Shown here: piece after piece, positions 6,911 to 42,312 of the stretch | How positions within the stretch are numbered: the stretch's first letter is position 1 | Layout of the letters: every line of letters begins with the position of its first letter | Origin: an uncultured Verrucomicrobia subdivision 3 bacterium | GTDB lineage: Bacteria; Verrucomicrobiota; Verrucomicrobiia; Limisphaerales; UBA11358 | Direction of reading: 5' to 3' | Length of the DNA: 42,914 bases | Assembly: GCA_903875465.1 (NCBI GenBank) | Contig: CAIQWB010000031.1 | Location: forward strand, 1-42,914 | Translations under genes and position numbers: made by a program | Notes under the pieces: model-generated | Told to the model about the DNA's origin: nothing | The model's database searches: none | The model's input: only the letters and a program-made list of their open reading frames with translations

Positions 6911-6988
6911 GTGACTGGTGACGAGTGACTGGTGACGAGCCAGGCCCAGGCCCGCGCTCATCACCCGCCACTTGTCACTCGTCACTGT
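6911..6988. repeat. Inverted pair of tandem heptamer arrays (GTGACNN x4 / TCACNNN x4)
   Basis: Four 7-base units (GTGACTG, GTGACGA, GTGACTG, GTGACGA) occupy 6911-6938. Four inverse-sense units (TCACCCG, CCACTTG, TCACTCG, TCACTGT) occupy 6961-6988. Together they fill the 94-base gap between the tape measure stop and the start of the hub gene, and in RNA they could fold into a long imperfect stem. The unit resembles two units just before the gene at 31212. It is one member of a family of heptamer arrays seen across the window. Confidence 0.85.
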
Positions 6989-6993
6989 CTTGC

Positions 6994-9327
6994 TCATGCG
7001 AATTTGTGGGCGTTTTTGCGCATGACATCGACCACCCACTTTTCATGGGCATCGGATTTTTGCAAGTGTTGCGACAATGCCTGGGGATCCAGAAAAGTAC
7101 TGACCGTCACACTGGTACCGCCCATACCACCACCGCCGAAGCTACTGCCGCCCTGGCTCATCATGGCGGCGGTTTTATCGGCCGGAATGATGGTGCCAGC
7201 GGAATCCGGAACAAATAACTCAGGACCGCGCTCACCGACAAGACTAGGCACGCCCGTGGGCGGCCGGCCACCCGCAGCGAAAGCGCTCAATCCGAGGGTG
7301 GCAGCAGATGCCAGGGCAATTTCCCCCGGCGCTGCGGCCGCCGAGGCTCCCAAGGTGGCAATAGTGGAAAGCGTGGCCGGTACCGCCCAAATCGCCGATT
7401 GAGCCATGGCAATCGGCGCGCTGGCGGCAAGGGCGCTGGCCTGAATTGCTTTGCCCGCAATCGCCATCATTACCTGAGTGAGCACCCAGCGCACGCCCAT
7501 TTGCACGATGGCTTGAATCACATCATTGAGGATGCTGGTGCCGATTTGCATGAGCGCCCGGCCCCAGGTGGTGGTGCCTTCAATCAGCCCGGTGATGCCC
7601 CGGCTGATGCTGCTTACCGCGCTATTGAAGACGCTGGCGAAACTGGAACTCACTTGCTGGGCCCAGCTTCCCCATTGATCCTGCAAACGCACCAGGGTTT
7701 GTTGAAAGGTCTGGCCGAAGGTCTGCGTGGCCGCGTTAATTTTCAACTGCACCTGGGATTCCTGCTCTTTTAGTTGCAGGTATTTTTTCTGGTACTCCAG
7801 GCGGGCGACCGGGTCGGTGGCGTTGCCAGCCAAAGCAATTTGCGACTGGGCATCGGCCGCCAGTTGCGCTTTTTGCTGCTGGTACAACGCGAGGGATTGG
7901 TCGTCCTTTTGTTGTTTGCTGAGATAAGGATTGCCCTGGATGGCGGTGAGTTTCGCCTGGGTTTCGGCACGGGCAATTTCCAGCTTCAGTTGGGCGGTGC
8001 GTTCGAGCTGGGCATTGTACTCGCGCTCGCCTTGGGCACGGGCTTTGCCGGCTTCCAGGATTTTGTGCGTGTATTCATCCTCGTCCATCACGCCGGCATC
8101 GAGCTGCTGCTGGTAAAGCGTGATCCGGGCCGTATATTCAGCCTGGTACAGCCGCTTGGTTTTGTCGGTGGTCGTTTCGCGCTGCGCGAGGATGGCATCT
8201 TCGAGCTCCTCGTTTTGCGCTTTGACGATGGTCTTTTTTTCCTCCGTCCATTGGCGTTCGGTCGCTTCCGTTTTGCGGAGCGACTCTTCAGCCATTTTTT
8301 CCGTGATTTCCGCCAGGCTGTTTTGCTCGGCGATTTTGCTGGCACTAATGGTGGCCTGGTATTTGACCTCCTCCTCCGCAGTCCATTTGTGCGCGGCCTG
8401 GGCAATGTCACGGGTCAGGCCAATTTCGCGGCGTTCCAGCTCGTAGCGATCGCGGATCCGCGACATCTGTTTTTCCGGGCCCACCTCGGCGTCGCGCTGG
8501 ATCTTCAATTCCAGCTCATGCAGTTTGGCCAGGGCTTCGGTGCCGGGGTTCTGGTCATTATTAGCCATCACGGTTTTATCGGCCCGCATTTGCGCCTCGA
8601 CGTATTTTTGCGTGTCGGCCGAATTGGCGAGCTGGCGGGTGCCGATGATCTGGCCCGTGCGGCTGTTGCGGATGTTGGGATCGGTGGTCAGTTGCGGGAT
8701 CTGCGTGCCGAATACGCCGAAGGCCCCGGTGCCAATAGTGCTGGCATGGCCACCGAAGGCATCGCCCACGGTGGTTTGGTTATAGAGCGGGGTTTTGCCG
8801 CTCAACATATCACGATACCGCTCCGCCATGGTCGGGCTAATGGTGCCGGCCCGCTGCGCCGTTTCGATCTTGCCGAGAATGCCAGGGATTTTCTCCAGCT
8901 CGTCCGCGAGTTCCTTGGCCCGTTTCTGGGGATCAATCAGGGCATCGCCGTAGTAATGCCAGGCCACGGCACCAGCCGCCACCGCCGCGGCCACGCCACC
9001 AATGACGGGCAGGAACTTTTGCATCACCGCAAACAAGCCCCCGCTCATATTCGCGCTAGCCTCGGCAATGCGCGGGGCCTCCATGGCGAGCGTCCGGATG
9101 GGATTGATGCCGGCAATCAAGGAGTCCATGGTGGCACGGGCGACGTGCTCCAGCTCCATGAGGGCCATGCGGTTCTGCGCGAAAAGGCCCTCCGTGTGCT
9201 TGCCGGCTTCCTGGGCCGCTTTGCCCAGGTCATCAAACTTGCCGCTATAGCCCGCGAGGAACTTTTGCAGCTCCGCCGCGGCGGCCTGCGTCTCCGCCGT
9301 TACCACGATTTTTACCGGATTAGCCAT
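6994..9327 (-). CDS. Tail tape measure protein
   Basis: A 777-residue protein setting tail length. It has a helical N-terminus, a membrane-like Ala-rich stretch near residues 100-125 (FLPVIGGVAAAVAAGAVAW), a long Lys/Glu/Gln-rich coiled-coil centre (about 240-560), a hydrophobic Ala-rich stretch near 620-680, and a C-terminus with the typical tape measure phrase AAGGRPPTGVPSLVGERGPE. This order matches siphovirus tape measures. It lies directly downstream of the tail assembly chaperone pair and upstream of the hub gene, the canonical order. Its length would predict a tail near 110-120 nm by the usual rule of about 1.5 angstrom per residue. Confidence 0.92.
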   Translation of the reverse strand: MANPVKIVVTAETQAAAAELQKFLAGYSGKFDDLGKAAQEAGKHTEGLFAQNRMALMELEHVARATMDSLIAGINPIRTLAMEAPRIAEASANMSGGLFAVMQKFLPVIGGVAAAVAAGAVAWHYYGDALIDPQKRAKELADELEKIPGILGKIETAQRAGTISPTMAERYRDMLSGKTPLYNQTTVGDAFGGHASTIGTGAFGVFGTQIPQLTTDPNIRNSRTGQIIGTRQLANSADTQKYVEAQMRADKTVMANNDQNPGTEALAKLHELELKIQRDAEVGPEKQMSRIRDRYELERREIGLTRDIAQAAHKWTAEEEVKYQATISASKIAEQNSLAEITEKMAEESLRKTEATERQWTEEKKTIVKAQNEELEDAILAQRETTTDKTKRLYQAEYTARITLYQQQLDAGVMDEDEYTHKILEAGKARAQGEREYNAQLERTAQLKLEIARAETQAKLTAIQGNPYLSKQQKDDQSLALYQQQKAQLAADAQSQIALAGNATDPVARLEYQKKYLQLKEQESQVQLKINAATQTFGQTFQQTLVRLQDQWGSWAQQVSSSFASVFNSAVSSISRGITGLIEGTTTWGRALMQIGTSILNDVIQAIVQMGVRWVLTQVMMAIAGKAIQASALAASAPIAMAQSAIWAVPATLSTIATLGASAAAAPGEIALASAATLGLSAFAAGGRPPTGVPSLVGERGPELFVPDSAGTIIPADKTAAMMSQGGSSFGGGGMGGTSVTVSTFLDPQALSQHLQKSDAHEKWVVDVMRKNAHKFA

Positions 9328-9330
9328 GGG

Positions 9331-9669
9331 TCAAATCTGCGTTTCTTGGATGACTTTTTTCTGCCACTGTTTCCAGTCGCTCTTTTCGGATTGCGCGGCG
9401 GCGAAGGCGTGGGCCATGTCCAATTGATCCCGCGCCCGGCGCCGGCGGCTGGCGGCGGCCATTAACTCCAGCCACTCCAGGGTGTGTTCCACGGCCTCGG
9501 CCCGTGTGAAGCCACAATCCAGGGCGAGGCCGGCGACAAAGACTTCTAACGGGATTTCAGGCCCTGCTCCATCGCGAGCTTCATCACGTCCGGAGGAAGC
9601 TGGGCCAGGGCCGCGACTTGGGTGCGAAGGCGTTCGGTTGCGGCGGCCGCCTGCCGGCCGCAATAGGCG
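9331..9669 (-). CDS. Tail assembly chaperone, -1 frameshift extension (lambda T-like)
   Basis: This open frame lies in the -1 frame relative to the preceding chaperone gene and ends four bases before the tape measure start. It has no credible start of its own near its conserved-looking part, which begins just beyond the upstream stop (PLEVFVAGLALDCGFTRAEAVEHTLEWLELM). It is open back to the slippery heptamer TTTTTTC at 9675-9669. A -1 shift there would give a product of about 212 residues: 100 from the first frame and 112 from this one. The arrangement is the same as lambda G/GT, where a minor frameshifted chaperone binds the tape measure. The C-terminal part is charged and helical. Independent translation cannot be excluded. 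Confidence 0.65.
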   Translation of the reverse strand, partial: RLLRPAGGRRNRTPSHPSRGPGPASSGRDEARDGAGPEIPLEVFVAGLALDCGFTRAEAVEHTLEWLELMAAASRRRRARDQLDMAHAFAAAQSEKSDWKQWQKKVIQETQI

Positions 9670-9968
9670 AAAAAACCGCGGGCGTTTACCTCCTTGCCCA
9701 CTTCCAGGATGCGCTCGTAACTTTGGGGTGCGAGCGTTTCTGCCCAGGGCTTCGGCATAAATCCCAGGTAAGCGCCAGGCGGGGGGCTCGGGGCTTGGGG
9801 CGCGGGGCCAGAAACCAGGAAGGCGACGAGGGCGGTTTCATCTTCGACGATCGCAAACCCCCGGCTGTAATCCTTTACCGGGATCTGGCGAACCAGGACA
9901 AATTCGGAATTACCATCCGTGTAGATGACTTCGATTTCATGGCCGGCATTGAGAGTGGCGTTGCTCAT
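9546..9968 (-). CDS. Tail assembly chaperone (lambda G-like)
   Basis: A 140-residue protein starting at ATG 9968 (MSNATLNAGHEIEVIYTDG); the longer frame upstream overlaps the preceding gene and looks non-coding. The first 60 residues look like a compact beta domain (EFVLVRQIPVKDY), then a Pro/Ala linker encoded by heptamer repeats (GPAPQAPSPPPG), then a helical C-terminus ending MEQGLKSR. Position directly before the tape measure, size and the -1 overlapping frame downstream mark it as the major tail assembly chaperone, which coats the tape measure during tail assembly and is absent from the virion. No specific family was recognised from sequence alone. Confidence 0.65.
   Translation of the reverse strand: MSNATLNAGHEIEVIYTDGNSEFVLVRQIPVKDYSRGFAIVEDETALVAFLVSGPAPQAPSPPPGAYLGFMPKPWAETLAPQSYERILEVGKEVNARGFFAYCGRQAAAATERLRTQVAALAQLPPDVMKLAMEQGLKSR
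9669..9675 (-). promoter_or_regulatory. Candidate -1 ribosomal frameshift site (TTTTTTC)
   Basis: On the minus strand codons 98-100 of the chaperone gene read GGT TTT TTC, giving the heptamer T TTT TTC, a canonical X XXY YYZ slippery site in the zero frame. Slippage by -1 enters the frame that stays open to 9331, just before the tape measure gene. The GC-rich sequence downstream could supply a stimulatory structure, but none was modelled. Confidence 0.6.
9783..9810. repeat. Tandem heptamer array GGGGCNN x4, inside a coding linker
   Basis: Units GGGGCTC, GGGGCTT, GGGGCGC and GGGGCCA follow each other without gaps. On the minus strand they encode the Pro/Ala/Ser linker of the tail assembly chaperone. 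The complementary unit GCCCCNN recurs at 29753 and 39793. Confidence 0.85.
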
Positions 9969-10962: not shown

Positions 10963-13900
10963 TTAAGGGCTAGTTTGAAGGAACGCGGAAGCGTGCAGTG
11001 ACGGACCAAATCCGGATGGAGTGTTGTTAGACAAGCCGACGCACCAAATATTCGTTGGGTTTGAAATCGTGAAGCTACAAGCGCAGTTGGTCATTTGATT
11101 TCCCGTTGCCGTGCCTAGCAAAGTGCCTAGCAAAGTGCCTTGCGATGGACTTGTATATACCCACACAGAAATATTTGTTCCAACCCCCAAGTTGTTCACG
11201 GTCTGCGAGATAATGCAGTTTGTTATGTGGCCAGAAAACCCCGCCGGACAGAAACATTGGTATGATCCTATACTGCTTGAGTTGGCACCAGAATATGGTG
11301 GTGGAACATAATAGGTGACGTTGTTGGTATAAGGGCTGGTAAAGTAAATACCCAAGGGTGCCGCGTAGGGGATGCTGGCTTGCGGCACCACCCCTACCAA
11401 ATTGGTCGCTTGAACATTGGTAATGCTCCCTCCATTTCCCGTGAACTGCCCGCCTGTGCTGGTGATGTTACCCCCCGAGCTGATGGAGGTTGCCGACAAC
11501 GAACCGTTCAGCGTGGTGGCGCTGGGCGTGTTGTTGGTCAGGACGGCGGCCGGCAGAGCCGCCAGCGGCACGGTGCCGGCGGTTAGTTGCCCGGCGTTAA
11601 GATTGCTCAAGCTGCTCCCCGTGCCGATGAAACTGGATGCAGTCACTGAGTTGGTGAAGTAGCCGGCATTGGCAAACAAATTGGAGCGCGCACTCAGATT
11701 ATCCCCTGAAAAATTAAAGAGGAACTTTTTGGCCGCATAATAATTGGTCCACGGCTGCGGATCACCTGTCAAGAAAGGAAACACAAAGACGTTAGTGTTA
11801 TTGTAGCCATGGATATAACCTTGTACCCCGATTCCCGCAAAGTAATCAGGTCCAGCGGCATTTTTAATTAATAGCGCATGGCCCAACCCCGGAAACAGCC
11901 CATCGGTGTGGTTGTTGCCGTAACTGTTGCCGGTGCTCGGCTGCATGTAGGCTGGGGCGAGGAACTGATCTTCCCCAAAGTCAGTCACCGAACCGTCTGA
12001 TTCGGTTTGCGTGTGCAAACCAGGGAGGACATCCCGGTGCAAAATATTACCACCATAATCCCATACCGGCCCGATGATGTTTGGGTTGTTAGGAAATTTC
12101 ACGGAACGAAGGGATAATATATTTGCCGTCGTCGCCGGCACGTAGAGAAACTGCAAATTACCCACCGGCTCCCCGTAGTTATTGACACTCAGTCCGTTGT
12201 TGCCAATCGACCAATCTGTCGCCACCACCCCGCCGGCACTATTCATGCCATAGATCCAGTTAGTTCCCATGTCGCCGTCTGGCTCGTCGTTGCCGCCCCG
12301 CACTTCCAATGTGGCTCCTTCATCCAATATGGCATAGTTGCGGGGGCCGTAAATGCCGCAGGACGTGCGAATCGTGAACCCATTAGCGCGGCCAAGGTAA
12401 ACGCCGCTGCCGCCGCGCCGGTAGCCGAACGTCAGGTTGTCAATAGTGATTTGGTCCGGCACACCAAGGTTGCAAATACCCGAACCAGCGTTACCATTGA
12501 ATCCCAAGCCATTGGTGTCAATCAAAGCACCGTAAGCGGCCATGTTCAAGGGACTGGTATTGGTATAATTTAACCAGTAAGCATGATAGACCACGGCATC
12601 ATTGTAGATGCCCAAGTCGCAGGCCGGACATTGCAAAAAGCTCCACCGTTCATCGTTTCCTCCGTTCACCAGGCCGATTTTAAAACCCGCAATCACCACA
12701 TTGTACAAGTCCACCCCACCGCCCGTGACCGAATTAGTGTCGCGAATCGTCAACCCGACTTTGGCGAAGGGGTTGGCATTGTTTGTGACTGCTCCCACAC
12801 AGTACATGGGGGCCGTGTAAAATGAGGCATCACTTAGCCCGGCCGTGGGATACACACCCCCGCAAAGCTCCAAATCGCGCAGGTTGATAATACCCTTGCT
12901 GGCAGCGTTCAAATGCACGGCATCTAGATTGGAGTTGCTTTGCCACAGCATGGTATATGGTTTGGTGATGTCGGCGCTGCCCCAGCCGAGATTGTGCAAC
13001 ACCCCCGCTCCGGCTAGTTTAAAGTTGTTAAAATTAACTTCCAACGAATTGGTCAGCTTGACAATCCCCGGCGGAAGAACGATGCAAGGCTTGATCAAAT
13101 TTGCGCTCGCCGCAAGGCAATTGGACATGGCCAAATCTTGCGAGACCAAAGCCGAGGTGCTGCCCCCCCAGTTGGTAATGACCACGCCCACCACCCCATA
13201 ATTCGTGGCCCAGATCAGCGTGTAACCGTCCGCCCATTGAGACACGGGCAGATTCGCCGGCTGCACCGCATTTTTCACAAAATTTGTCGTGGCCAGTCCG
13301 TTGGTCACCGACGCCGTGACAAACCCGTTGGTTGAAGGCATTTGCCCAACAATCGTGTTACTGGCGCTGAATACCTCCGCATGCGAAGCCACAATATTTG
13401 TCGGCAGGCTGGCATATCCCGTGAGGTTGCCATTGGTCGGCTGGCTGCCGGTCATGCCAGGGGTGATACCGGTGGCAGTACCGGTGCCAGTGATGGCTAG
13501 TGTGGCCCCGTTGGACACAGTAAGCGTGCTGCCCGCATTAACTTGCATGCCCACCAACGAACCGGCGTTGTAGCTACCACCGTAAATGCTGTTGAGGTTG
13601 GTCATGGATCCAATGAAGCCATTGAACGTGCCGGAAAATGTTTGGGCCGTGACATTGCTTAAAATCGTGCTCAAAGGATTGCCCTGTGAATCCTGAAACA
13701 CCACTTTGCCGGCAATACTCCCCAAAGTGTTCGTGTACGGCGATGTTCCAAAGGTGGATGCCAGCGTTACCAGGGGTGGGAATGGCCCGTTGGCCGCAAG
13801 GGTGAATCCATAGCCCAGATTCACGTTGATGGCCCCATTCGTCACCGCCAGCGCGTTGACCGGCAGGGCGGCCGCGGTGCCATAGGCATCGTAGGTATTG

Positions 13901-14457
13901 GTCGTGACACTCACCGTGTTGGTGCCGTTGGCGTAGTTCAAGGTGACACCCGTGCCGGCGGCGAGTGGCGTGCCACCACCAGTACCACCGGACACCCCGG
14001 CGATAAGGGCATCCACCTGCCAGGCAGTATAGTACGGCCAGCCAGCGGGCGGCTGGTTGGTATAGCCGGTGAGCGCGGCCACGTTTGCTGCACCCAGGGT
14101 GTTGGTCTGCACGGCGAAGCTGAAGCGCACGTTGTCACTGGGGATCACACACAGGTAGCTGCCCCAGGGCAGATTGGTGAACGTGGCCGTTCCCGTGACA
14201 TCCGTGTAATGCGTCTGGGCACTGTGGCTGATATTCGTGGCCCCACCAACAATGCGCGGGAATGGCCCGGTTAATTGCACATTCACGGCGACGCCAGCCT
14301 CGGGCACCTGGCCGATGTCAGCCAGGGGAATGGCAATCACATTCGTCTGCGCGTGCCCAGGAGTCAGCAGCCAGAAGCTAGAAGCCAGCATGGCCACCAG
14401 CCACCGGATGGCGTCACTGATTCTGTCTCCTGACTTCTGGCTCCTGGCTGCGCTCAT
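10963..14457 (-). CDS. Large secreted fibre/tailspike-like protein with beta-helix region
   Basis: This 1164-residue protein is the largest of the window. The N-terminus carries a hydrophobic leader (residues 17-37, LVAMLASSFWLLTPGHAQT) encoded largely by heptamer repeats; an alternative start at residue 23 would make a shorter signal peptide. It is followed by an Ig-like region (about 40-160) and a Gly/Thr/Asn-rich shaft. A probable right-handed beta-helix then spans about 440-800 (short Asn/Gly-rich strands such as GIINLRDLELCGG and GGGVDLYNVVIAGFKIG), as in pectate-lyase-like tailspikes. Next come fibre repeats (SSFIGTGSSLSNLNAGQL) and a C-terminal beta domain with several Cys. Inferred role: host surface binding or polysaccharide degradation. 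Its place between tail tube and chaperones is unusual. Confidence 0.65.
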   Translation of the reverse strand: MSAARSQKSGDRISDAIRWLVAMLASSFWLLTPGHAQTNVIAIPLADIGQVPEAGVAVNVQLTGPFPRIVGGATNISHSAQTHYTDVTGTATFTNLPWGSYLCVIPSDNVRFSFAVQTNTLGAANVAALTGYTNQPPAGWPYYTAWQVDALIAGVSGGTGGGTPLAAGTGVTLNYANGTNTVSVTTNTYDAYGTAAALPVNALAVTNGAINVNLGYGFTLAANGPFPPLVTLASTFGTSPYTNTLGSIAGKVVFQDSQGNPLSTILSNVTAQTFSGTFNGFIGSMTNLNSIYGGSYNAGSLVGMQVNAGSTLTVSNGATLAITGTGTATGITPGMTGSQPTNGNLTGYASLPTNIVASHAEVFSASNTIVGQMPSTNGFVTASVTNGLATTNFVKNAVQPANLPVSQWADGYTLIWATNYGVVGVVITNWGGSTSALVSQDLAMSNCLAASANLIKPCIVLPPGIVKLTNSLEVNFNNFKLAGAGVLHNLGWGSADITKPYTMLWQSNSNLDAVHLNAASKGIINLRDLELCGGVYPTAGLSDASFYTAPMYCVGAVTNNANPFAKVGLTIRDTNSVTGGGVDLYNVVIAGFKIGLVNGGNDERWSFLQCPACDLGIYNDAVVYHAYWLNYTNTSPLNMAAYGALIDTNGLGFNGNAGSGICNLGVPDQITIDNLTFGYRRGGSGVYLGRANGFTIRTSCGIYGPRNYAILDEGATLEVRGGNDEPDGDMGTNWIYGMNSAGGVVATDWSIGNNGLSVNNYGEPVGNLQFLYVPATTANILSLRSVKFPNNPNIIGPVWDYGGNILHRDVLPGLHTQTESDGSVTDFGEDQFLAPAYMQPSTGNSYGNNHTDGLFPGLGHALLIKNAAGPDYFAGIGVQGYIHGYNNTNVFVFPFLTGDPQPWTNYYAAKKFLFNFSGDNLSARSNLFANAGYFTNSVTASSFIGTGSSLSNLNAGQLTAGTVPLAALPAAVLTNNTPSATTLNGSLSATSISSGGNITSTGGQFTGNGGSITNVQATNLVGVVPQASIPYAAPLGIYFTSPYTNNVTYYVPPPYSGANSSSIGSYQCFCPAGFSGHITNCIISQTVNNLGVGTNISVWVYTSPSQGTLLGTLLGTATGNQMTNCACSFTISNPTNIWCVGLSNNTPSGFGPSLHASAFLQTSP
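11111..11146. repeat. 12-base tandem repeat, three copies
   Basis: GTGCCTAGCAAA occurs twice in perfect tandem (11111-11134), followed by a diverged third copy (GTGCCTTGCGAT). In the fibre protein it encodes the repeated tetrapeptide GTLL near the C-terminus, so copy changes keep the frame. Confidence 0.85.
14362..14450. repeat. Inverted pair of heptamer arrays at the fibre gene start
   Basis: Four units of AGYCAGN/AGCTAGA type (AGTCAGC, AGCCAGA, AGCTAGA, AGCCAGC) lie at 14362-14389. Four inverse units (CTGTCTC, CTGACTT, CTGGCTC, CTGGCTG) lie at 14423-14450. Both arms fall in the first 32 codons of the large fibre gene and encode parts of its leader. The same family recurs at 27808-27842. 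Confidence 0.85.
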
Positions 14458-14460: not shown

Positions 14461-15018
14461 TCAGCTCAGCGTGACGATGTTGTTGGCGTTGTAGAGCAGG
14501 TCCGCCTCATACTCAGGCATGATGACGTTGCCATCGCCTGACTTCATGCCGCCCGTGAGCTTGATGCGCACCCAGAGCAGCGCGACCTGGTGCAGGACGT
14601 TGTACTGGTCGTAACGTTGCAGCAGGAGGAAACCACGGGGCGGCACGCCGGCCAGCGGGTTGAAGTAGGCCGCCCCGGCCGCCAGGGTCTGCGTGCGGTA
14701 CAGGAGTTGGTGGGCAATCACGCTCAGCTCATTGCTCTTGAACGTGAATTTGAGATCCTGCTTCGTGGTGATGACATCCTTGGGCACGAGCTGGCCCGGC
14801 GACGGGCGGTACAAACGCTTTTCCTCGCTGGTAGGTTTGTCTTCCCATTCCTCGATCACGCCGAGATCGATCCACTCGGGCGTGGTGGTGGCCGGAACGT
14901 TGGACGCGCTTACCGGGTTGGCAGCATTGCTGCCAGCGGCGGCGATGCTAAAGGTGTCGCCCTCACGCAACAGGAAGCAGTGAGAGCCAATGGCATAGGA
15001 TTCTTTGACGAACGACAT
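14461..15018 (-). CDS. Major tail tube protein
   Basis: A 185-residue protein whose pattern matches siphovirus tail tube proteins: MSFVKESYAIGSHCFLLREG at the start, the phrase EWIDLGVIEEWEDKP, then strands including TTKQDLKFTFKSNELS and a C-terminus MPEYEADLLYNANNIVTLS. The phrase describing a label for substrates 'DVITTKQDLKFTF' is typical of tail tubes, where the beta-sandwich subunits polymerise around the tape measure. It lies downstream of head-tail connector genes. No sheath gene was found in the window, which argues for a non-contractile tail. The leader is A/T-rich with no clear Shine-Dalgarno sequence. Confidence 0.75.
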   Translation of the reverse strand: MSFVKESYAIGSHCFLLREGDTFSIAAAGSNAANPVSASNVPATTTPEWIDLGVIEEWEDKPTSEEKRLYRPSPGQLVPKDVITTKQDLKFTFKSNELSVIAHQLLYRTQTLAAGAAYFNPLAGVPPRGFLLLQRYDQYNVLHQVALLWVRIKLTGGMKSGDGNVIMPEYEADLLYNANNIVTLS

Positions 15019-27101: not shown

Positions 27102-27611
27102 TTAAGGTTTCCCCGTCGCCGCCTTGATCACATTCCCCACCGCCGTGCCCCCCGCGCCGATGGCCTGCACCGCGTTGGTCGAGATCGTGCTTTGGATCTC
27201 CCCGATGCTGCTCGCCCGGCTGCCGCCCAGGGCCGACTGGTTCGTGTGATTGAAGGTCAGCGCCGAAGCCTGCGGATCCGTCAGCAGGAACGTCCCGCCG
27301 CCCGAACTGGTATCCTCCCAGACTTCATGAAACACCCGGTACACCTTCGGCCCCGGCGCCGTGAGGCCGGCCCAGAAGCCGGCCGGACTCGTGCCAGGGG
27401 AAGTAACATTCACCTGCACCAGCTCATTGCCGGCCGCTGTGTTCGTCACATTAAAGGTGGTGACCGTGTCGCCCGGTGGGGCCACCACGGCATACGCCGA
27501 GAGTTCGTGTTTGGTCTGGCTGTGCTCGCGGCCATGCGCGCAACCGGCCGTGGCCAGGGCCAGCGCACCCAGGGCGAGCAACGCAACGGAAAACAATTTC
27601 GGGAATTTCAT
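27102..27611 (-). CDS. Lipoprotein
   Basis: A 169-residue protein with a lipoprotein signal peptide: basic start MKFPK, hydrophobic core and lipobox ATAGC with the lipidated Cys at residue 24, then a charged HGREHS segment. The mature part is Thr/Ser/Gly-rich with no known domain. It is the first gene of the leftward late block after the hairpin-rich gap. It might be an outer-membrane spanin partner for the gp25-like protein, or a superinfection-exclusion lipoprotein; both are inference. Confidence 0.7.
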   Translation of the reverse strand: MKFPKLFSVALLALGALALATAGCAHGREHSQTKHELSAYAVVAPPGDTVTTFNVTNTAAGNELVQVNVTSPGTSPAGFWAGLTAPGPKVYRVFHEVWEDTSSGGGTFLLTDPQASALTFNHTNQSALGGSRASSIGEIQSTISTNAVQAIGAGGTAVGNVIKAATGKP

Positions 27612-27807
27612 ATCGTTAGGGAGTTATTTGGTTCGTGGTTAATGACTGGAACATCACAACGCCAAGCCGAGGTTCGGCCAGGGAAAAGCACCAGCCAGCC
27701 CCGATGCCGGCATGAGGGACCCGGCCGGTTGGGACGGCGGGCAAGGGAATGACAGCAAGGAGGCTGGCGGGTGCTTTCAAGCCAGGCCCGGAAGTCCGGG
27801 CCTTAGT

Positions 27808-27842
27808 CTGGCTCCTGACTTCTGAATCCTGGCTTCTGGCGT
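27808..27842. repeat. Tandem heptamer array CTGNCTN, five units
   Basis: Units CTGGCTC, CTGACTT, CTGAATC, CTGGCTT and CTGGCGT follow without gaps. They belong to the same family as the arms at 14362-14389 and 14423-14450 in the fibre gene. Confidence 0.85.
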
Positions 27843-28015: not shown

Positions 28016-28378
28016 TTACTGCCCCATATTCATCTGATTCCCCCCAGTGCTGTTCACCAGGCTGGAAACCACATCGTTGGTCCCGAAAGTCACTGATAGC
28101 ATCTCCGTCCTGGTATTCGCGCCGCCCACGAATGGACCAGCCAATGGAATGTAGGAGGCAGCCGTCGCACTGGCGTGGACGTACACATATTGAAATGTCA
28201 CGATCCCATCACCATCCCTGGTCATTTGGTCCGGCTTGCCTACGAGCTGGAGGACCTGTTCGCGAGTGGTGACCCCTTTCTTGATTTGCTCCACTTTAGC
28301 CTGGTCCAGTTGGTGTCCCACTGAAACGCAACCATATAGCAGTGATGCTGCCGCTACGACGCAAAACAGTTTTTTCAT
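28016..28378 (-). CDS. BamE/SmpA-like lipoprotein
   Basis: A 120-residue protein with a lipoprotein signal (MKKLFCVVAAASLLYGC, lipobox LLYGC, Cys 17) and the SmpA/OmlA-like phrase KVEQIKKGVTTREQVLQLVGKPDQM, then VTFQYVYVHA. The 'i..G.Tt.eqV...lG.P' pattern is that of the BamE fold, found in outer-membrane assembly factors and many small lipoproteins. It is the second gene after a small membrane protein with which it overlaps. In a prophage it may be a lysogenic surface factor rather than a housekeeping gene. Confidence 0.75.
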   Translation of the reverse strand: MKKLFCVVAAASLLYGCVSVGHQLDQAKVEQIKKGVTTREQVLQLVGKPDQMTRDGDGIVTFQYVYVHASATAASYIPLAGPFVGGANTRTEMLSVTFGTNDVVSSLVNSTGGNQMNMGQ

Positions 28379-29605: not shown

Positions 29606-30076
29606 ATGAACCAAAAATCCCTAACCCTCCCTTTGAATGTCCGCACCGTGCTGGTCACCACCGACACCGCCAGCGCCACCCTGGGCCTGGACACCGACAC
29701 CATCATCGCCCGTGCCGAGAGCCAGTACCGCTTCGTCTGGGACGTCTCCGCCGCCCCGCGCCCCATGCCCCATGCCCCACGCCCTTCGCGCTCAGTGCGC
29801 GAATTGCGCTTCTGGGCCCGCGAAATCATCGCGCCGGAAACCTGCACCGCGCTCGAACTCCCGGCCGTGATCCGGGTGATTCTGGGCGACCGCGCTTTTT
29901 TTCACCCCGGCGAAGTGAACATTCTCCTGCGCATTACGCGCCCCACCCGCCTCGCCTTGGGCAAGTGTGGTGCCCTGCAACGCCAGGCCGGCACGGGCTT
30001 CTACCCGCGGGCCACCCTTGAACATTTCCTCACCAACCGTCTGCTGAACCAATCCGTTACCAATGAAAAACGCTAG
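29606..30076 (+). CDS. Hypothetical early protein with heptamer-encoded linker
   Basis: A 156-residue protein. The start ATG 29606 (MNQKSLTLPLNVRTVLV) follows the previous stop by a few bases; the longer frame would overlap it. A Pro-rich insert (about residues 50-62, PRPMPHAPRPSRS) is encoded by heptamer repeats and splits an N-terminal segment from a C-terminal one with LELPAVIRVILGDRAFFHPGEV, then ITRPTRLALGKCGALQ and YPRATLEHFL. The last part resembles an excisionase or winged-helix turn, but weakly. Function is unknown; its place between the switch and transposase suggests a DNA-binding accessory. Confidence 0.5.
   Translation: MNQKSLTLPLNVRTVLVTTDTASATLGLDTDTIIARAESQYRFVWDVSAAPRPMPHAPRPSRSVRELRFWAREIIAPETCTALELPAVIRVILGDRAFFHPGEVNILLRITRPTRLALGKCGALQRQAGTGFYPRATLEHFLTNRLLNQSVTNEKR
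29753..29787. repeat. Tandem heptamer array GCCCCNN, five units
   Basis: Units GCCCCGC, GCCCCAT, GCCCCAT, GCCCCAC and GCCCTTC lie in tandem within the gene at 29606, encoding its Pro-rich insert. The inverse unit GGGGCNN is at 9783. Confidence 0.85.
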
Positions 30077-31195: not shown

Positions 31196-31209
31196 TCACT
31201 CGCCACTCC
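31196..31209. repeat. Two heptamer units before the gene at 31212
   Basis: TCACTCG and CCACTCC lie directly upstream of the start codon and match the TCAC-type units in the array at 6961-6988. This is a short member of the same family. Confidence 0.55.
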
Positions 31210-31211: not shown

Positions 31212-31418
31212 ATGAAACTCAACATCGCCATCGGCTCCGTTTGGCAGTCCTACGAAAACGGACTGTTCTACAAAGTCCTCGATGTCGAGGGCCGCGAAGT
31301 CTGTGCCACCACGCGGATCCGGAACACCCCGGCGGAGGCCGACAGCTTTAGCTGGCTGGGCGAGGTGCCGGAATTCCTGAACCACTTCAAACCCGCCCCG
31401 CAACACATTTTCGCATGA
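31212..31418 (+). CDS. Small hypothetical protein coupled to the transposase
   Basis: A 68-residue protein: MKLNIAIGSVWQSYENGLFYKVLDVEG, REVCATTRIRN and SFSWLGEVPEFLNHFKP. The pattern 'iGsvWq......fyKVldveg.eV' resembles a small SH3/DUF-type beta barrel seen in phage proteins. Its stop overlaps the transposase start (ATGA), implying translational coupling. Function is unknown. Confidence 0.65.
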   Translation: MKLNIAIGSVWQSYENGLFYKVLDVEGREVCATTRIRNTPAEADSFSWLGEVPEFLNHFKPAPQHIFA

Positions 31419-33634
31419 TTGACACCCTCAATGCCGACGTTTCAACGTTCCAACGTTCCAACGTTTCAACGCCCACGATTTCCGACCACGCCGCGCCGCG
31501 CTTTGACCCCGCGGCAACCGCGTTCGGCGCGGGAGTGGAATCGGCCGACAGGCTGGTGCCGGAAGAAACCTCCGGACAGGTTACGCTGGGTGCCCGTGCC
31601 AGCGGACCCATTGAAAGCCTCGTCCCCGCCACTCCCGCGAACCATGTCCGGCCGCTCCGTGACGTTTCGCCCGACTACAACGAAGCCCAAAGCCGCCTGC
31701 TCAAATTGCGCGCCCGCCAGGCCCTGCTCGATCAAGGCCACTCCACCAAGTTTGCGGCCCGTGAACTGGGTGAAGCCCATGTCACCCTCTGGCGTTGGGC
31801 CCAGCGCGTGGCCGGCCTGGATCTGGAAGATCCGAAAAACCTTCCCGACATCCTGGACAAGTTGTGCGATCGCACCAGCGCCTGCGGCCGGTCCGGCGAT
31901 TACGAGCCCTTGCTCCTCATCCCGGCCGTGGGTCAGAAACTTCGGGAGATTCACGCCGCCACCCTGGGAGCCAGTGCGGCCAGCATGACCAACGACCGGC
32001 GTACTGGCAACTACAGCGCCACCCTCAAAGCCTTCACCCTGGAGCCGGAATGCCCTGAGCCTCTCAAACCGAAGCTCCTCGCCGGCAAATTCCCGGTGTG
32101 CCTGACCCGCTTCCTGGCTCAAGTCACGCCCGAGATCGAAGCCCGGCTCCGGGGCACCAAACATTTCGCCCTGCATGGGCCCAGCGGCCGCCGCGAAAAG
32201 TGCATCGGCCTGCCGGATGGCTCGCGCGCTTACCTCCCCGCCGGCTGGGTGATCGAACTGGACGACATGAGCGTCAACCAGCCGTTCTGGGTCGAAGGAC
32301 CGGATGGCCCCATTCTGTCCCGCCAGGGCTTGTACGTCCGCTGCCTGAAGGGTGGCTGGCGCGCCGTGGAACTCATCAGCCGCCCGCGTGAGTCCTACAC
32401 CTCGGCCGACATCCTGCGCTTTTTGCGCCGCTTTTGTTCGCTTTATGGCAAGCCGCGCAAGGTGCGCATTGAACGCAGTGTGTGGGCTGCCCGCAACATC
32501 GCCGGCTTTCGCCTGCAAGGCGGGGACTGGGTCCAGGAAGAGGTGGTGCGCGATGCCATGGGCAAGGAACAACGCAGCGACCTGGAGAACGGTCTGCGGG
32601 CCATCGGCGTGGAAATCGAATACTGCCATTCCGCCCGCGGCAAGTCCGACCTTGAGGGGGCTTTCCATCCCTTCCAAACCAACCTTGCCATTTTCACGCG
32701 CGACTTTATCAATGTCGGCCGGCATGCCGGCGAATTCGAGCACGCCGCCAGGAAAATGCGCCAGGTGCGTGCTGGCAGCCATCATCCCAAAGACCTCGGC
32801 TTTCCCCACCAAAGCGAGCTGCTCGCCCGGATCCAGAAGACTTTTGACTTCCTGAATTCCCTGCCGCGCAAGGGCGGCACCTTTGATGAAGTCTGGACCC
32901 GTGACACGGCCAAATGGCCGCTGGCTGCCTTGACCACGGGTGATCTGGCTGCGTTTCTGCCGTTGCTCCGGGAACGGGCCATCAATGGCGGGGCCGTTTA
33001 TCCGGTGGTCAATGGCAAGACCTTCTGTTTCCGTGCGCCCGAAGCGTTCATGTCGCTGGGCGATGGCTACCGCGTCTACGTGCGCTTTGATGACACCGAA
33101 CCCAGCCTCGGCGCCGCCATCTACAACCGTGAAGGTAACAACAGCAGCAATCACCAGGGCCACGCCCTCGGCAAATTCATCGCCTGGGCCGCGCACGATG
33201 TCCCCGGCTGCACCACCTATGCCGACACCGTGCCGGACGATCTGCCCCGTTATAGCGTCGAGGAGCTGCACGGCCCCGGTGCCGTGGCGAACCAAGCCGC
33301 CGGGCTCAAACAACAGCGCCAGGCGGTGAATGGTTTTGTGCGGGCCGCCTTCAGCGGTGGCAAGCCCGGCCAGCCCGCCGCCCGCACCATTGAGGCCCGC
33401 ACGGCCGCCGGCGTCGCCAAGCTCGCCACCGGCACGCCACTGATTGAGCCCGCTTTGCCGGCCCAGAGCCCAAAGCCTCATCCGTCCCAGCACACCGGAA
33501 GAATTCAGCAAGGCCAGCGATCGCCGCCGCCGCCAAGGCGCCGCCGCCCGCGCCCTGCTGGAGGCCAGCGCTTAAATGTTAATTTTAGTTGGGAAAAAGT
33601 CAGTCAAACAACAAACAAAAAGGGAATAATATGA
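31415..33634 (+). CDS. Mu-like DDE transposase (MuA-like), C-terminus probably frameshifted
   Basis: A 739-residue protein for replicative transposition and integration. An N-terminal tail is partly encoded by octamer repeats. An HTH at about 95-132 (KLRARQALLDQGHSTKFAARELGEAHVTLWRWAQ, split here by reading) comes before the rve/RNase H-like catalytic core: ELDDMS (Asp 283/284), KVRIERSVW (Glu 353 where Asp is usual) and KSDLEGAFHPFQ (Glu 414). A beta-barrel-like domain follows (about 530-600). From about residue 690 the frame becomes Pro/Arg-rich and low-complexity. The +1 frame instead reads STPEEFSKASDRRRRQGAAA and RALLEASA, then stops at 33575. The switch point is the heptamer array at 33461-33481. 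The frame as it stands ends in an ATGA overlap with the next gene. Confidence 0.85.
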   Translation: MIDTLNADVSTFQRSNVSTPTISDHAAPRFDPAATAFGAGVESADRLVPEETSGQVTLGARASGPIESLVPATPANHVRPLRDVSPDYNEAQSRLLKLRARQALLDQGHSTKFAARELGEAHVTLWRWAQRVAGLDLEDPKNLPDILDKLCDRTSACGRSGDYEPLLLIPAVGQKLREIHAATLGASAASMTNDRRTGNYSATLKAFTLEPECPEPLKPKLLAGKFPVCLTRFLAQVTPEIEARLRGTKHFALHGPSGRREKCIGLPDGSRAYLPAGWVIELDDMSVNQPFWVEGPDGPILSRQGLYVRCLKGGWRAVELISRPRESYTSADILRFLRRFCSLYGKPRKVRIERSVWAARNIAGFRLQGGDWVQEEVVRDAMGKEQRSDLENGLRAIGVEIEYCHSARGKSDLEGAFHPFQTNLAIFTRDFINVGRHAGEFEHAARKMRQVRAGSHHPKDLGFPHQSELLARIQKTFDFLNSLPRKGGTFDEVWTRDTAKWPLAALTTGDLAAFLPLLRERAINGGAVYPVVNGKTFCFRAPEAFMSLGDGYRVYVRFDDTEPSLGAAIYNREGNNSSNHQGHALGKFIAWAAHDVPGCTTYADTVPDDLPRYSVEELHGPGAVANQAAGLKQQRQAVNGFVRAAFSGGKPGQPAARTIEARTAAGVAKLATGTPLIEPALPAQSPKPHPSQHTGRIQQGQRSPPPPRRRRPRPAGGQRLNVNFSWEKVSQTTNKKGII
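31437..31468. repeat. Octamer array AACGTTYC, four units at the transposase start
   Basis: ACGTTTCA, ACGTTCCA, ACGTTCCA and ACGTTTCA lie in tandem 22 bases after the transposase start codon. Each junction contains the palindromic core AACGTT. The array encodes part of the N-terminal tail (DVSTFQRSNVST). It could double as a protein-binding cluster. Confidence 0.85.
33461..33481. repeat. Heptamer array GCCCANA, at the transposase frameshift point
   Basis: GCCCAGA, GCCCAAA and GCCTCAT lie in tandem. The same unit order appears at 40728-40755 (with GCCCATA added). A change of one unit (7 bases) or four units (28 bases) shifts the frame by +1, the offset seen between the two halves of the transposase. 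Confidence 0.85.
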
Positions 33635-38974: not shown

Positions 38975-39540
38975 CCCCTGCCCAGCGCAAATCCCTCTAC
39001 TTCCCGGCCTGGCAGCGCTGTGCCAAAGCCAACTCCTGGCAAATGGTCGAAGGCCGCTTGCTGGCGGTCCCGGCCGAGCAGCTCGACGCCTTTATCGGCT
39101 GGCCCGAACCCGCCGCCCCCGTCGGTGCCGAAGTCATCACCACCGCCCAAAACCTCGCCGCGCACGAGCACCGCGCCATCACTGCCGAAGACCTGCGGCA
39201 CGCCTGCAACCACGTTGCCACCACCGGCCGCACGGTCAGCAGCGGCAAATTAACGAACAAAGAAATCAACCGCGCCGTGGATCTGTTCAACCTCCTCACC
39301 GATCCCTGGAACCTCACCTACGTCACCGCCTGGCTAAATCCCCAGGACGCCGAGCGCGCCAGTTTCCTTTCCTTCCTGCGCAAACAAGCCCAGGAAGCCG
39401 TCCTCGTGCGCATCGCCACTAACGCCTTCGACACCAGCGACTACGCCGCCCTCGACATCGCCAAACTCCGCTGGATCGCCAAACAAGTCCGCGACCGTGG
39501 CCAGCCCAAAGCCCCCAAACCTGAACCCGTGCTTATTTAA
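38971..39540 (+). CDS. Hypothetical early protein, helical
   Basis: A 189-residue protein starting MTPAQRKSLYFPAWQRCAKAN, with ITAEDLRHACNHVATTGRT, a phrase KLTNKEINRAVDLFNLL, and ALDIAKLRWIAKQVRDRG near the C-terminus. The start recalls GemA/gp16-type proteins of Mu-like phages, and it lies in a comparable place, but similarity is too weak for an assignment. It is coupled to both neighbours (ATGA and TAATG). Confidence 0.6.
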   Translation: MTPAQRKSLYFPAWQRCAKANSWQMVEGRLLAVPAEQLDAFIGWPEPAAPVGAEVITTAQNLAAHEHRAITAEDLRHACNHVATTGRTVSSGKLTNKEINRAVDLFNLLTDPWNLTYVTAWLNPQDAERASFLSFLRKQAQEAVLVRIATNAFDTSDYAALDIAKLRWIAKQVRDRGQPKAPKPEPVLI

Positions 39541-39911
39541 TGTCCTCTCCCTCACCTACCTGCTGGTACTCCATCCGCGACGACGCCGGCCGCCACGAGT
39601 GCGGCGCCCCGGCCACCCACCGCAACTTCACCGGTGCCAAATGGTTTTACTTATGCGAAGCCCATGCCATTCAAGTGCAAAAATCCACCAAAGGCAAAAT
39701 GCGCCCCTCGCCCCTGGTCGCCACACTTTTAGCCGAGAAACTGCACACGCTACCCCTTTCCTCCGTCGGATCTGTCCCCTCAGTTGCCCAAAGCCCCGCG
39801 CCCCATAGCCATGCCGAGGTTCGGCCCTCGGGCCTCACGCCTTCCCAGTCCGAACAACTCCGCCGCTTTCGCGAAAACCTCGCCGCCCGCGGCGACTCCG
39901 GCAGCCTCTAA
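39540..39911 (+). CDS. Hypothetical protein with heptamer-encoded linker
   Basis: A 123-residue protein. The N-terminal half resembles a small zinc site (CWYSIRDDAGRHECGAPATHRNF and FYLCEAHAIQV give Cys/His pairs). The middle is a Ser/Pro/Ala linker encoded by heptamer units (VAQSPAPHSHAEV), and the C-terminus is a short helix (SQSEQLRRFRENLAARG). It overlaps the previous stop by one base. Function is unknown. Confidence 0.55.
   Translation: MSSPSPTCWYSIRDDAGRHECGAPATHRNFTGAKWFYLCEAHAIQVQKSTKGKMRPSPLVATLLAEKLHTLPLSSVGSVPSVAQSPAPHSHAEVRPSGLTPSQSEQLRRFRENLAARGDSGSL
39786..39813. repeat. Heptamer array GCCCNNN, about four units
   Basis: GCCCAAA, GCCCCGC, GCCCCAT and a degenerate AGCCATG lie in tandem in the linker of the gene at 39540. 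It combines units of the GCCCANA and GCCCCNN types, linking the two families. Confidence 0.7.
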
Positions 39912-40458: not shown

Positions 40459-40715
40459 ATGCCCTCGACACCGCCGCCATCCTGTCCAAAATCAACGCCA
40501 CCATCCGGCCCGATTGCCACTTTCAGAAAGTCTTCCCTGCCCAATTTGCCAGCCAAACCCAAGGCAAAACCGAGGTGGTATACGCCATCCATCATGGCGC
40601 GGTAAAACATGAAAGCCATGGCATCATGGTTGTTTTTCCCTTTATCGCCGAAATCAGCTTCCTGGACAAAGGCGGTGGCAATCTCCCGCCTACCACTGTC
40701 TTTCATCTTAACTAA
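40455..40715 (+). CDS. Small hypothetical protein before the MuF-like gene
   Basis: An 86-residue protein: NALDTAAILSKINATIRPDCHF, QKVFPAQFASQTQGKTEVVYA, and MVVFPFIAEISFLDKGGGN. It appears to be alpha/beta. It ends five bases before the heptamer array that precedes the MuF-like gene, and overlaps the previous gene by four bases. No family was recognised. Confidence 0.55.
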   Translation: MNALDTAAILSKINATIRPDCHFQKVFPAQFASQTQGKTEVVYAIHHGAVKHESHGIMVVFPFIAEISFLDKGGGNLPPTTVFHLN

Positions 40716-40720
40716 TTTCC

Positions 40721-40755
40721 GCCTCGCGCCCAGAGCCCAAAGCCCATAGCCTCAT
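40721..40755. repeat. Heptamer array GCCCANA, five units, before the MuF-like gene
   Basis: GCCTCGC, GCCCAGA, GCCCAAA, GCCCATA and GCCTCAT fill the gap between the gene ending at 40715 and the GTG start at 40762. The same units occur in the transposase (33461) and, in another order, in the MuF-like linker (41614). Confidence 0.88.
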
Positions 40756-40761
40756 ACCGCC

Positions 40762-42312
40762 GTGCAATTCATCACCCCATTGCCCTTCCAGGAAGCCATC
40801 GACAAGCTCGACGCCAAGAGCATCATCGGCTCCCAGTTGAGCAGCTCCGAGTGGGCTGATGTCCCCGTGGAACTCCGCGAACGTGCTTTCTTCAGCTCCC
40901 GCGTCGAGTCCGCCCAACTCCTCCAGCGCATGGACGACCTGGTCTCCGATTTCCTCACCGGCCGCAAAATCGAAAATGGTACCGGTGAAACCGTCTTGTC
41001 CGTTGGCAGCCGTGCCGCCTTTGTCGACCAGATGCAAACCTACCTGGCCGCCTCCGGCATCGAGCGCACCAGTGGCGGCCTCCAGGACATCACCAGTCAG
41101 GCCCGCCTTGGCATCATCTTCGATACCCAAGTCCGCCAGTCCCACGATTACGGCAATTGGAAACAGGGCATGGATCCCGACGTCCTCGACGCCTTCCCGG
41201 CCTCCCGCTTCATCCGCGTCCAGGACGTCCGTGAACCCCGCCAAAGCCACATCCAGTATGAAGACCAGGTCTACCTCAAAACCGACCCTATCTGGCACCT
41301 GGTGATTAACAAAGACTTCGGCGTCCCTTGGGGCCCCTGGGGCTGGGGCTGCGGTCACGACGTCGAAGACGTCGATCGTAAATGGTGCGAAACCCACGGC
41401 CTCCTGCACCCCGGCCAGCGTGTCACCCCGTCCAACTTCGGCTTCAACCACGGCCTGGGTGCCAGCATGAAACGCCTCGCCCCCGACCTGGTCGACAAAC
41501 TCCGCGCCGCCTTCGGTCATCAAATCACCATCGAAGGTGACACCATGCGCTGGACCAACGCCACCGCCCCGGCCGCGCCGGCCGTCCCGGTCCCTGTTCC
41601 AGTCCCGGTCCCCGCCCCGAGCCTAAAGCCCAAAGCCCAGAGCCTCGCCGACATCCTGGCTGAAGTCGGCCTCACCAGCGAGGCCAAGGCCACCCCCGAA
41701 CAAATGGCCACTCTCCGCGAAGCCCTCCGCGAAGCCAGCCCCATTTCCCAAAAAGCCGTGATCAAATCCGTCACCGGCACCGATGCCGCGGGCAATCTTT
41801 CCACCACCAATCTGCGTCAGATGGTCCAGGACTTCCTGAACTTCTTCCCCCCGGATCTGGTCAGCCAACTGCCCAAACTTAAAATCTTTGTCGGTAAAAT
41901 TGACGGGAATGGTTCCTACCTCGATGCCCAGGTGAAGTTGAACTACCGCCGCCTCCTCCACGATCCCCAGCAGCTTCGCCAGACCCTTTACCACGAGCTG
42001 ATGCACTGGATCCACATCGAAGGCCCCGCCGGGTACCGCCAGGTTATTAACCAGCACTTCCAGGCTCGCACCGCCGGCGAACTCACCAAACGCCTGCCCA
42101 ATTATGGTCGCAATGTCGTTGGCTTGAAAGATGACTGGTACGAAGTCTATGCCGGCCGGATCTATTACGGCCACCCTTATGGCGGCCAGGGCCTCGAAGT
42201 CCCCACCCGGTACATTGAATGGCTCGCCATGCCCTCCGACAAGATGGCTTTCCTCTGGAACATCCCCAGCTTCCGGGAAACCATGCAAATCGTCCTCCAG
42301 GCCCTTATCTGA
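40762..42312 (+). CDS. MuF head-morphogenesis protein fused to an HExxH metallopeptidase domain
   Basis: A 516-residue protein starting at GTG 40762. Residues 1-260 match minor head proteins of the MuF (gp30) family: PLPFQEAIDKLDAKSII, PVELRERAFFSSRVESAQLL, and the conserved end with DPIWHLVINKDFGVPW, GWGCGHDVEDVD. A Pro/Val repeat (276-287) and a heptamer-encoded linker (to about 296) follow. Residues 297-516 hold a second domain with LYHELMHWIH (His 411, Glu 412, His 415), a gluzincin-like zinc site, and a possible third ligand Glu 486 in EVPTRYIEWLAM. MuF proteins enter the virion with the portal and are injected; C-terminal enzymes on them are known as phage-borne polymorphic toxins. The gene lies 18 kb from the portal on the other strand. 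Confidence 0.8.
   Translation: MQFITPLPFQEAIDKLDAKSIIGSQLSSSEWADVPVELRERAFFSSRVESAQLLQRMDDLVSDFLTGRKIENGTGETVLSVGSRAAFVDQMQTYLAASGIERTSGGLQDITSQARLGIIFDTQVRQSHDYGNWKQGMDPDVLDAFPASRFIRVQDVREPRQSHIQYEDQVYLKTDPIWHLVINKDFGVPWGPWGWGCGHDVEDVDRKWCETHGLLHPGQRVTPSNFGFNHGLGASMKRLAPDLVDKLRAAFGHQITIEGDTMRWTNATAPAAPAVPVPVPVPVPAPSLKPKAQSLADILAEVGLTSEAKATPEQMATLREALREASPISQKAVIKSVTGTDAAGNLSTTNLRQMVQDFLNFFPPDLVSQLPKLKIFVGKIDGNGSYLDAQVKLNYRRLLHDPQQLRQTLYHELMHWIHIEGPAGYRQVINQHFQARTAGELTKRLPNYGRNVVGLKDDWYEVYAGRIYYGHPYGGQGLEVPTRYIEWLAMPSDKMAFLWNIPSFRETMQIVLQALI
41614..41648. repeat. Heptamer array in the MuF/peptidase linker, five units
   Basis: GCCCCGA, GCCTAAA, GCCCAAA, GCCCAGA and GCCTCGC lie in tandem, right after a hexamer array encoding Val-Pro repeats (about 41585-41613). 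Together they make the flexible joint between the two domains. Confidence 0.85.

Follow-up and report, generated by a model that had tools for sequence, protein, structure and literature searches.

The stretch of DNA considered here (positions 1 to 42,914 of contig CAIQWB010000031.1, assembly GCA_903875465.1; hereafter, the window) originates from an uncultured Verrucomicrobia subdivision 3 bacterium and carries a Mu-like phage that is dotted with short tandem arrays of heptanucleotides. In both the phage and its host, arrays of this kind are found where genes meet and within variable loops of proteins. We favor, with moderate confidence, the view that they are heptamer repeats resembling the short tandemly repeated repetitive (STRR) sequences, common to the phage and the host lineage, which have spread to tolerant sites and are resized in 7-nt steps. 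The array class as such is already known. Less expected are the re-occupation of one protein loop, that of MutY, with changing units, and the inverted pairing of neighboring arrays.

Tandem Repeats Finder (TRF), run with a minimum score of 30, reported nine rows of period 7 in the window, starting at positions 6908, 6957, 9783, 14357, 14423, 27807, 29752, 40728, and 41620, whereas 100 dinucleotide shuffles of the window yielded a mean of 0.86 and a maximum of 3 such rows. A lag-match score (cut at 8 for the mutY loops discussed below and at 9 or 10 for other counts) gave 6 segments at lag 7 in the window versus 0.1 in 20 shuffles, the top value among lags 4-30; lag 14, a harmonic of 7, had 5 segments, and lags 6, 12, and 16 had 3 each. 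A chance origin of the period of 7 is thus ruled out by the shuffles for both measures. The shuffle comparison had been named in advance in the original prediction, which regarded similar counts in shuffled sequence as evidence against specific insertion; far fewer rows were found. At least ten exact heptamer arrays had been claimed as well. Nine of the eleven listed sites were found by TRF, and their period is exactly 7, but the copies are inexact (68-88% matches across the nine rows), and the sites at 33461 and 39786, recognized by eye as 2.5-3.5 degenerate GCCCNNN units, were unreported. Neither did TRF report the shorter arrays proposed at 31196 and 33850, which are too short to stand alone.

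The arrays in the window comprise approximately 3-5 units with a constant core of 4-5 nt and belong to the classes GTGACNN, CAGNAGC, and GCCCNNN. Two GTGACNN arrays detected by TRF form the arms of an inverted pair (6908..6939 on the plus strand; 6957..6986, with 69% matches, on the minus strand) within the noncoding gap 6900-6993 between the tape-measure and tail-assembly genes. An inverted pair of the CAGNAGC class consists of one arm at the start of gene 10963-14457 (14357..14388, minus strand; TRF and RNA hairpin fold) and another directly downstream of gene 14461-15018 (14417..14449, plus strand; TRF rows); both were counted as coding and lie at a gene start. The gap between genes 27102-27611 and 28016-28378 holds a CAGRAKY-class array (27807..27840, minus strand; TRF and pattern match). 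GCCCCNN arrays reside in the minus-strand gene 9546-9966 (9783..9808, minus strand; TRF and tblastn alignments of homologues) and in the open reading frame (ORF) 29606-30076, where the units read Pro/Ala-rich (29752..29784, plus strand; TRF with 88% matches, and translation). The two degenerate GCCCNNN arrays are located on the plus strand near the 3' end of the transposase-like ORF 31415-33634 (33461..33483, short) and in ORF 39540-39911 (39786..39812). Finally, plus-strand GCCYNNN arrays recovered by TRF and pattern matching occupy the gap directly before gene 40762-42312 (40721..40751; TRF row 40728) and, within that gene, the end of the conserved N-terminal domain (41614..41644; TRF row 41620).

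According to a hand-made gene list, 6 of 14 hand-listed array sites are wholly noncoding and 8 are coding; the statement that the arrays lie always in gaps or interdomain linkers was therefore too strong. Noncoding DNA, which represents 6.5% of the window bases, is over-represented among the array sites, as it is for STRR sequences and bacterial heptameric simple sequence repeats. All five coding arrays of the GCCCNNN class have their C-rich strand in sense orientation (minus at 9783; plus at 29752, 33461, 39786, and 41614) and translate to Pro/Ala-rich stretches.

The source genome (G000) comprises 5.3 Mb in 153 contigs, the window being C31:1-42914; below, C numbers denote contigs of this genome, other G numbers further genomes of the phylum, and L numbers retrieved loci or contigs. 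Pfam profiles identified the Mu-like phage (Portal_Mu, E = 1.7e-64; Phage-MuB_C, E = 4.5e-7), and PHROGs matches included major head, tape-measure, tail-assembly, terminase, and minor head proteins. Among the 8 of 211 named-phage records listed, the portal protein obtained its best bit score with Akkermansia phage Chantilly (27.8% identity). The 6 lag-7 segments of the window correspond to 14.0 per 100 kb, compared with 8 segments, or 1.0 per 100 kb, in a host sample of 59 stretches with 802,973 bases (p = 3.6e-5). Related phages, chosen by homology, contained 20 segments in 188,921 bases (10.6 per 100 kb), 9 of them in L241, and phylum chromosome stretches unselected for arrays contained 8 in 330,424 bases (2.4 per 100 kb). 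A concentration in a transposable phage had been considered special. This view was not supported, as the same class is present in housekeeping genes of the host, and stretches of 3-4 kb surrounding mutY in related genomes carried 25 lag-7 arrays in 119,420 bases, or 20.9 per 100 kb, a value to which the mutY loop itself contributes.

A search of the host genome with the pattern GCCYNNN (4.4 units) gave 20 matches, and the backward control gave none. The matches represent four sites in the window plus 13 loci in the rest of the genome (Poisson p for the density difference about 5e-6); the GCCYNNN arrays are thus dispersed in many copies over one genome, as STRR-type repeats are. With a period of 7 above chance, dispersed copies, and over-represented noncoding sites, the STRR-like character proposed for the arrays was supported. 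The pattern GCCYANA was present in 13 of 387 phylum genomes. CAGRAKY, allowing up to one mismatch, was found at 14423 and 27808 of the window and on host contig C117. The GCCYNNN and CAGRAKY results rule out a purely phage-specific repeat, and the suggested connection to the host is supported for these two classes. A host derivation was not shown for GTGACNN, whose four-unit version occurs once in the host genome, at 6911, and in 25 of the 387 phylum genomes. A five-unit GTGA pattern had 30 matches on five contigs of the related genome G400 and none in G000. Among the matches listed, five-unit GTGACNN arrays appeared in named genomes of many phyla, ruling out a cyanobacterial specialty. The backward control of this pattern, CAGTGNN, was itself abundant in G259 (222 matches), G276, G187, G066, and G327 and represents another heptamer class.

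At four of the 13 host GCCYNNN loci, the array lies inside or at the end of a gene with a Pfam hit, namely mutY, a threonyl-tRNA-synthetase-like gene, an adenylation-domain gene, and a 23S_rRNA_IVP ORF, whose tail it occupies; of the other nine loci, at least the one on C14 overlaps no ORF of 90 codons or longer. In mutY, in the adenylation-domain gene, and in the tail of the 23S_rRNA_IVP ORF, it is again the C-rich strand that codes. In the threonyl-tRNA-synthetase-like gene (L488:9315-11348), the C-rich units are on the non-coding strand and precede the tRNA_SAD domain. The adenylation-domain array occupies a loop without net lengthening relative to PDB 8g95. Host contig C122 (L483:10322-12877) contains three GCCYNNN arrays within 2.6 kb, including that of mutY, and arrays may therefore cluster.

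MutY provides a view of an array site in a host protein. The host enzyme consists of HhH-GPD and NUDIX_4 domains, and its arrays encode SSPRAPSLAPRAQILPPKAQSPEPRAS, before LNQSLMELGALICTP. A phmmer alignment with PDB 6q0c splits at the array, with query residues 170 to 212 opposite 16 chain residues. All 40 relatives searched gave a match, and loci were obtained from 30 genomes, our own included; some of the other ten had a distant paralogue only. We analyzed 29 of the 30 loci, leaving out L469, which has no anchor motif. Because each loop was excised in a single frame between two anchors, loop length is necessarily a multiple of three. Lag-7 arrays were detected in the loop of 8 of 29 genes (7 of 28 without our own genome), amounting to nine arrays in 2,169 nt of loop versus three in 27,695 nt elsewhere in the gene; shuffled loops gave 0.055. 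By lag, the loops scored 9 at lag 7, 6 at lag 14, 5 at lag 9, 4 at lag 21, 2 at lag 8, and 1 each at lags 5 and 12, with zero at the remaining lags of 4-21.

The units in this loop are mostly different: GCCCMNN in G000, GCCCCGC in G400, ACTCAAA in G407, AAAGCGG in G405, TCCGAAA in G398 (two units inside a palindrome, in a mutY match that holds a stop codon), CACTCGT in G404, an AATT-rich unit in G409, and CCTTCAT in G414. Those of G000 and G400 belong to one class and to near relatives. Among 25 genomes of the same genus, G400 (37) and G000 (20) had the most GCCYNNN matches, followed by 9; G400 also has 20 backward-control matches, and G425 (65) and G418 (22) of the wider order score high. The loops of L463, L468, and L474 contain a palindromic repeat, which in L463 consists of AGCAGCCGACGTAAGGAGGCTC with its complement and has a two-unit heptamer at the center, and those of L455, L457, L461, L462, and L482 contain 9-nt repeats of the GCGAAGAAC/CCTTCGCG type, another repeat family. 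To our knowledge, neither the origin nor the role of bacterial heptamer repeats has been established, although such repeats have been described for decades. A single loop that holds different heptamer arrays in relatives constitutes a clean natural assay, and mutY alleles with and without arrays could reveal how an array is born, why the step is seven, and how a repeat is converted into a linker.

The phage genes offer comparable cases. In gene 9546-9966, the array sits in a stretch of 16-17 residues that is missing from six of seven homologues according to tblastn (17 residues in five homologues and 16 in L240; L241 equals L242 there), and the seventh, L238, has unrelated filler in its place. 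Together with the similar arrays in the mutY loop, this bears out the idea that arrays make protein linkers and loops grow. In gene 40762-42312, the two closest relatives share the conserved N-terminal domain as far as residue 270-284, beyond which the array lies. No homologue of ORF 29606-30076 (array 29752) was found in the viral contigs searched, and none of ORF 39540-39911 (array 39786) in the relatives searched.

Comparison of related phages revealed turnover. In related viral loci, three arrays are present or absent as blocks, two of 42 nt and one of 38 nt, and L067 and L069 differ by one 7-nt unit. Indel pieces in multiples of 7 accounted for 5 of 24 near arrays versus 8 of 389 elsewhere. 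The junction that follows gene 14461-15018 carries CAGNAGC units in the window, AAGGCTR units in L241, and AACATTC units in L245; a weak array is present in G387 (L238), and none was scored in L240, L244, and G388 (L234). Arrays next to the start of the tail-assembly gene are of the GTCAC type in the window and L245, and of the AAGGCTR type in L241. One fixed repeat sequence is ruled out, since the units differ between relatives. Of 85 cases mapped between two contigs that both carry arrays, 17 have unlike units, in a strand-free count over all arrays of the neighborhood in which many cases involve the same contigs; in 10 more, the second contig has no array. The phage L241 contains six TTYAGCC-type arrays. 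In the viral set, units of one contig resemble each other more than permuted ones do, the within-contig unit likeness being 0.205 versus 0.052 permuted, a value reached in 0 of 1000 permutations. The viral set (L063-L142) and a genome set (L290-L369) had been picked for GTGACNN arrays, which were excluded in the permutation tests only. We removed five viral contigs from the permutation, junction, and inverted-neighbor counts on account of overlaps with other contigs at 99.95-100% identity; related contigs remain, so that contig pairs are not independent.

A scenario in which STRR-like repeats spread through phage and host would proceed as follows. A short piece of an existing array would be copied to a new place by templated insertion or by a switch of template; hairpins may take part, as the mostly inverted orientation of neighboring like arrays suggests. 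The copied arrays would then grow and shrink through 7-nt replication slippage, and selection would spare them where little harm results, that is, at junctions and surface loops. The phage may be richer in arrays than the sampled host chromosome through better tolerance or faster turnover of its genes; a dedicated phage function would be unnecessary for their presence.

Several observations weigh against this scenario. Copying between loci is inferred rather than observed, and 13 of the 24 indels near arrays comprise only 1-3 nt. Because the surroundings of mutY in relatives are as array-dense as the phage, the enrichment in the phage may reflect local unevenness. The absence of a second four-unit GTGACNN array from the host genome leaves a host derivation of this class unsupported, and the GCCC-type mutY loops of the near relatives G000 and G400 may be explained by common descent. 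Many mutY loops hold non-heptamer repeats, palindromic or of 9 nt by eye, so that the loop seems tolerant of repeats in general. Within-contig unit likeness was unclear in the genome set (0.12 versus 0.064 permuted; 198 of 1000 permutations as high). The other 68 of the 85 mapped cases, moreover, share a common unit (distance 0-1), as plain inheritance predicts.

The last two observations are also the ones expected if each array was born locally by period-7 duplication and slippage, without any copying, and common units reflect base composition and descent. The 7-nt step between L067 and L069 fits such an origin, and heptamers are over-represented in many bacteria, for which a proposal cited by Rehm et al. 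(2015, PMC4692102) invokes a polymerase contact as the reason for the step of seven. Local birth does not readily account for GCCYNNN arrays at 17 loci of one genome with an empty backward control, for the within-contig likeness of the viral set, for the six TTYAGCC-type arrays of L241, or for inverted pairing. We regard it as a possible, though somewhat doubtful, alternative to the spread of existing arrays.

Neighboring like arrays are mostly inverted. The 94-nt gap with the inverted arrays 6908-6939 and 6957-6986 folds better than its shuffles (DNA z = -3.18), and so do the inverted arrays 14357-14388 and 14417-14449 (RNA z = -4.09). In the viral set, like-unit arrays 8-200 bp apart comprised 21 inverted and 3 direct pairs, and in the genome set 15 inverted, 5 direct, and 1 ambiguous. 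Altogether, 36 of 44 neighboring like arrays are inverted (p about 1e-5), a count taken from loci picked for GTGACNN arrays and an optimistic p, since related contigs and overlapping pairs are included. An inverted pair whose arms are separated by 64-72 bp reads TTAGCCR in both arms in L081 and GTTGCCR in both arms in L137. The better folding, the prevalence of inversion, and the joint change of unit in both arms would be in line with junction arrays being selected RNA or DNA elements, that is, hairpins that end, pause, or stabilize transcripts, or sites of protein binding, with the coding copies as by-products. TAACTGA heptamers, too, are found directly upstream of start codons in Beggiatoaceae (PMC4679880). 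Yet arrays are missing at the same junction in related phages, units vary freely, many arrays lie within genes, and no T run follows the window hairpins by eye. Selection for such elements appears unlikely.

Equally improbable, in our judgement, is that the unit is specified in trans. A host copy-and-insert or templated-synthesis activity would write genome-specific heptamers into junctions and exposed loops of the chromosome and the resident phage, relatives would re-write these sites, and the phage would record earlier hosts. The uniqueness of the four-unit GTGACNN array in the host genome and the GTGA-type arrays on five contigs of G400 can be offered for such a record. If unit classes are indeed genome-specific, this would point to an undescribed copying mechanism.

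The array at 33461 calls for separate consideration. The transposase-like ORF has no match in Pfam or PHROG; homologues were matched in 9 of 387 phylum genomes, the source genome included, and the matches of the other genomes stop by residue 667 of 739. The codon-usage score upstream of the array is +40.4 in the ORF frame, whereas downstream it is +10.2 in the +1 frame versus -14.6 in the ORF frame and -12.3 in the remaining one. The tail of the relative L235 aligns best to the +1 frame (score 34, matched by 23 of 1000 shuffles; ORF frame 27, 70 of 1000). With every 7-nt unit the frame moves by one position, and a changed unit number would thus be a simple cause of the frame switch, which appears to coincide with the array. 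It is conceivable, therefore, that at least this array is a phase-variation switch in which gain or loss of a unit alters the C-terminal frame, as in neuO, a cargo gene of phage CUS-3 that switches by heptanucleotide slippage (PMC13001214). We consider this very unlikely, as 2.5-3 degenerate units are short for slippage, the +1 tail shows modest protein similarity, and third-position GC is of little help in telling the frames apart (0.73, 0.67, and 0.77); the site may instead carry a plain frameshift mutation. Least probable of all is a dedicated enzyme that writes heptamers from an internal template: the likeness of units within viral-set contigs and the re-occupation of one mutY loop by different units would suit it, but the window contains as many as four classes side by side, units within an array vary at 2-3 positions, and no candidate turned up, although none was sought.

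Two further repeats were noted in the window. The predicted octamer array at 31437 was recovered by TRF with period 8 (ACGTTYCA, 4.4 copies, 31437..31471, plus strand, 92% matches) near the N terminus of the transposase-like ORF. Stretches sampled from G107 and G101 likewise scored high at lag 8, so that an octamer relative of the heptamers may exist. Phage gene 10963-14457 contains a perfect 12-nt direct repeat, GTGCCTAGCAAA, with 2.5 copies at 11111-11140 (TRF).

In a literature search whose coverage left out most subscription papers, no title or abstract among those listed dealt with heptamer arrays in Mu-like phages or mutY. Rickettsia palindromic elements and other in-frame genic repeats reside inside conserved genes at tolerant surface loops. 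The heptamer arrays resemble them in occupying loops of conserved genes, and some mutY loops hold palindromes; they differ in being tandem and in lacking a single conserved element.

A survey of prokaryotic repeats described longer units as generally not suppressed (PMC4060949). With neuO, a phage-borne heptanucleotide switch, the 33461 array shares a coding 7-nt repeat in a phage and a frame that unit number could set; neuO has 3 to 53 repeats and measured switching (PMC13001214), and the 33461 array has 2.5-3 degenerate units. Heptamers also occur as TAACTGA direct repeats in Beggiatoaceae, Cyanobacteria, and Bacteroidetes (PMC4679880). Like the window arrays, they are found near gene ends and starts, in distant phyla, and partly in ORFs. 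They have one fixed unit, whereas the window contains several degenerate classes, and the passages concerned report no phage link, in contrast to the phage-borne arrays described here. Borg elements are repeat-rich mobile DNA with disordered protein stretches (PMC9879509). In both systems a mobile element is richer in repeats than its host, repeats lie in gaps and ORFs, and hotspots are reused. Borg repeats, for which their authors favor a local origin on the spot, are near-perfect, locus-specific, and divisible by three in ORFs, and they are virtually absent from the host (PMC9879509). The window units, by contrast, have 7 nt and 68-88% matches, several of them in ORFs, and their classes are common to different loci and to the host, as the 13 host loci of GCCYNNN demonstrate.

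The arrays also resemble the heptameric repeats of Calothrix, Nostoc, and Xanthomonas (Rehm et al., 2015, PMC4692102). As in the STRR sequences of Calothrix and the G-rich heptamers of Xanthomonas and Nostoc, 7-nt units with variable positions are joined head to tail, often about four at a time, and the arrays are dispersed, richer in noncoding DNA, and variably present in the intergenic DNA of relatives. Judged by sequence only, the GCCCC-class arrays have four G-tracts on one strand, with four GGGG tracts at 9783-9808 and a C-rich counterpart at 29752, and may have a potential for G-quadruplexes like that of the G-rich heptamers; the GTGACNN and CAGNAGC arrays have no such tracts. In contrast to these known heptamers, the arrays of the window reside in a Mu-like phage, occupy coding loops with changing units, and are mostly inverted when close to each other.

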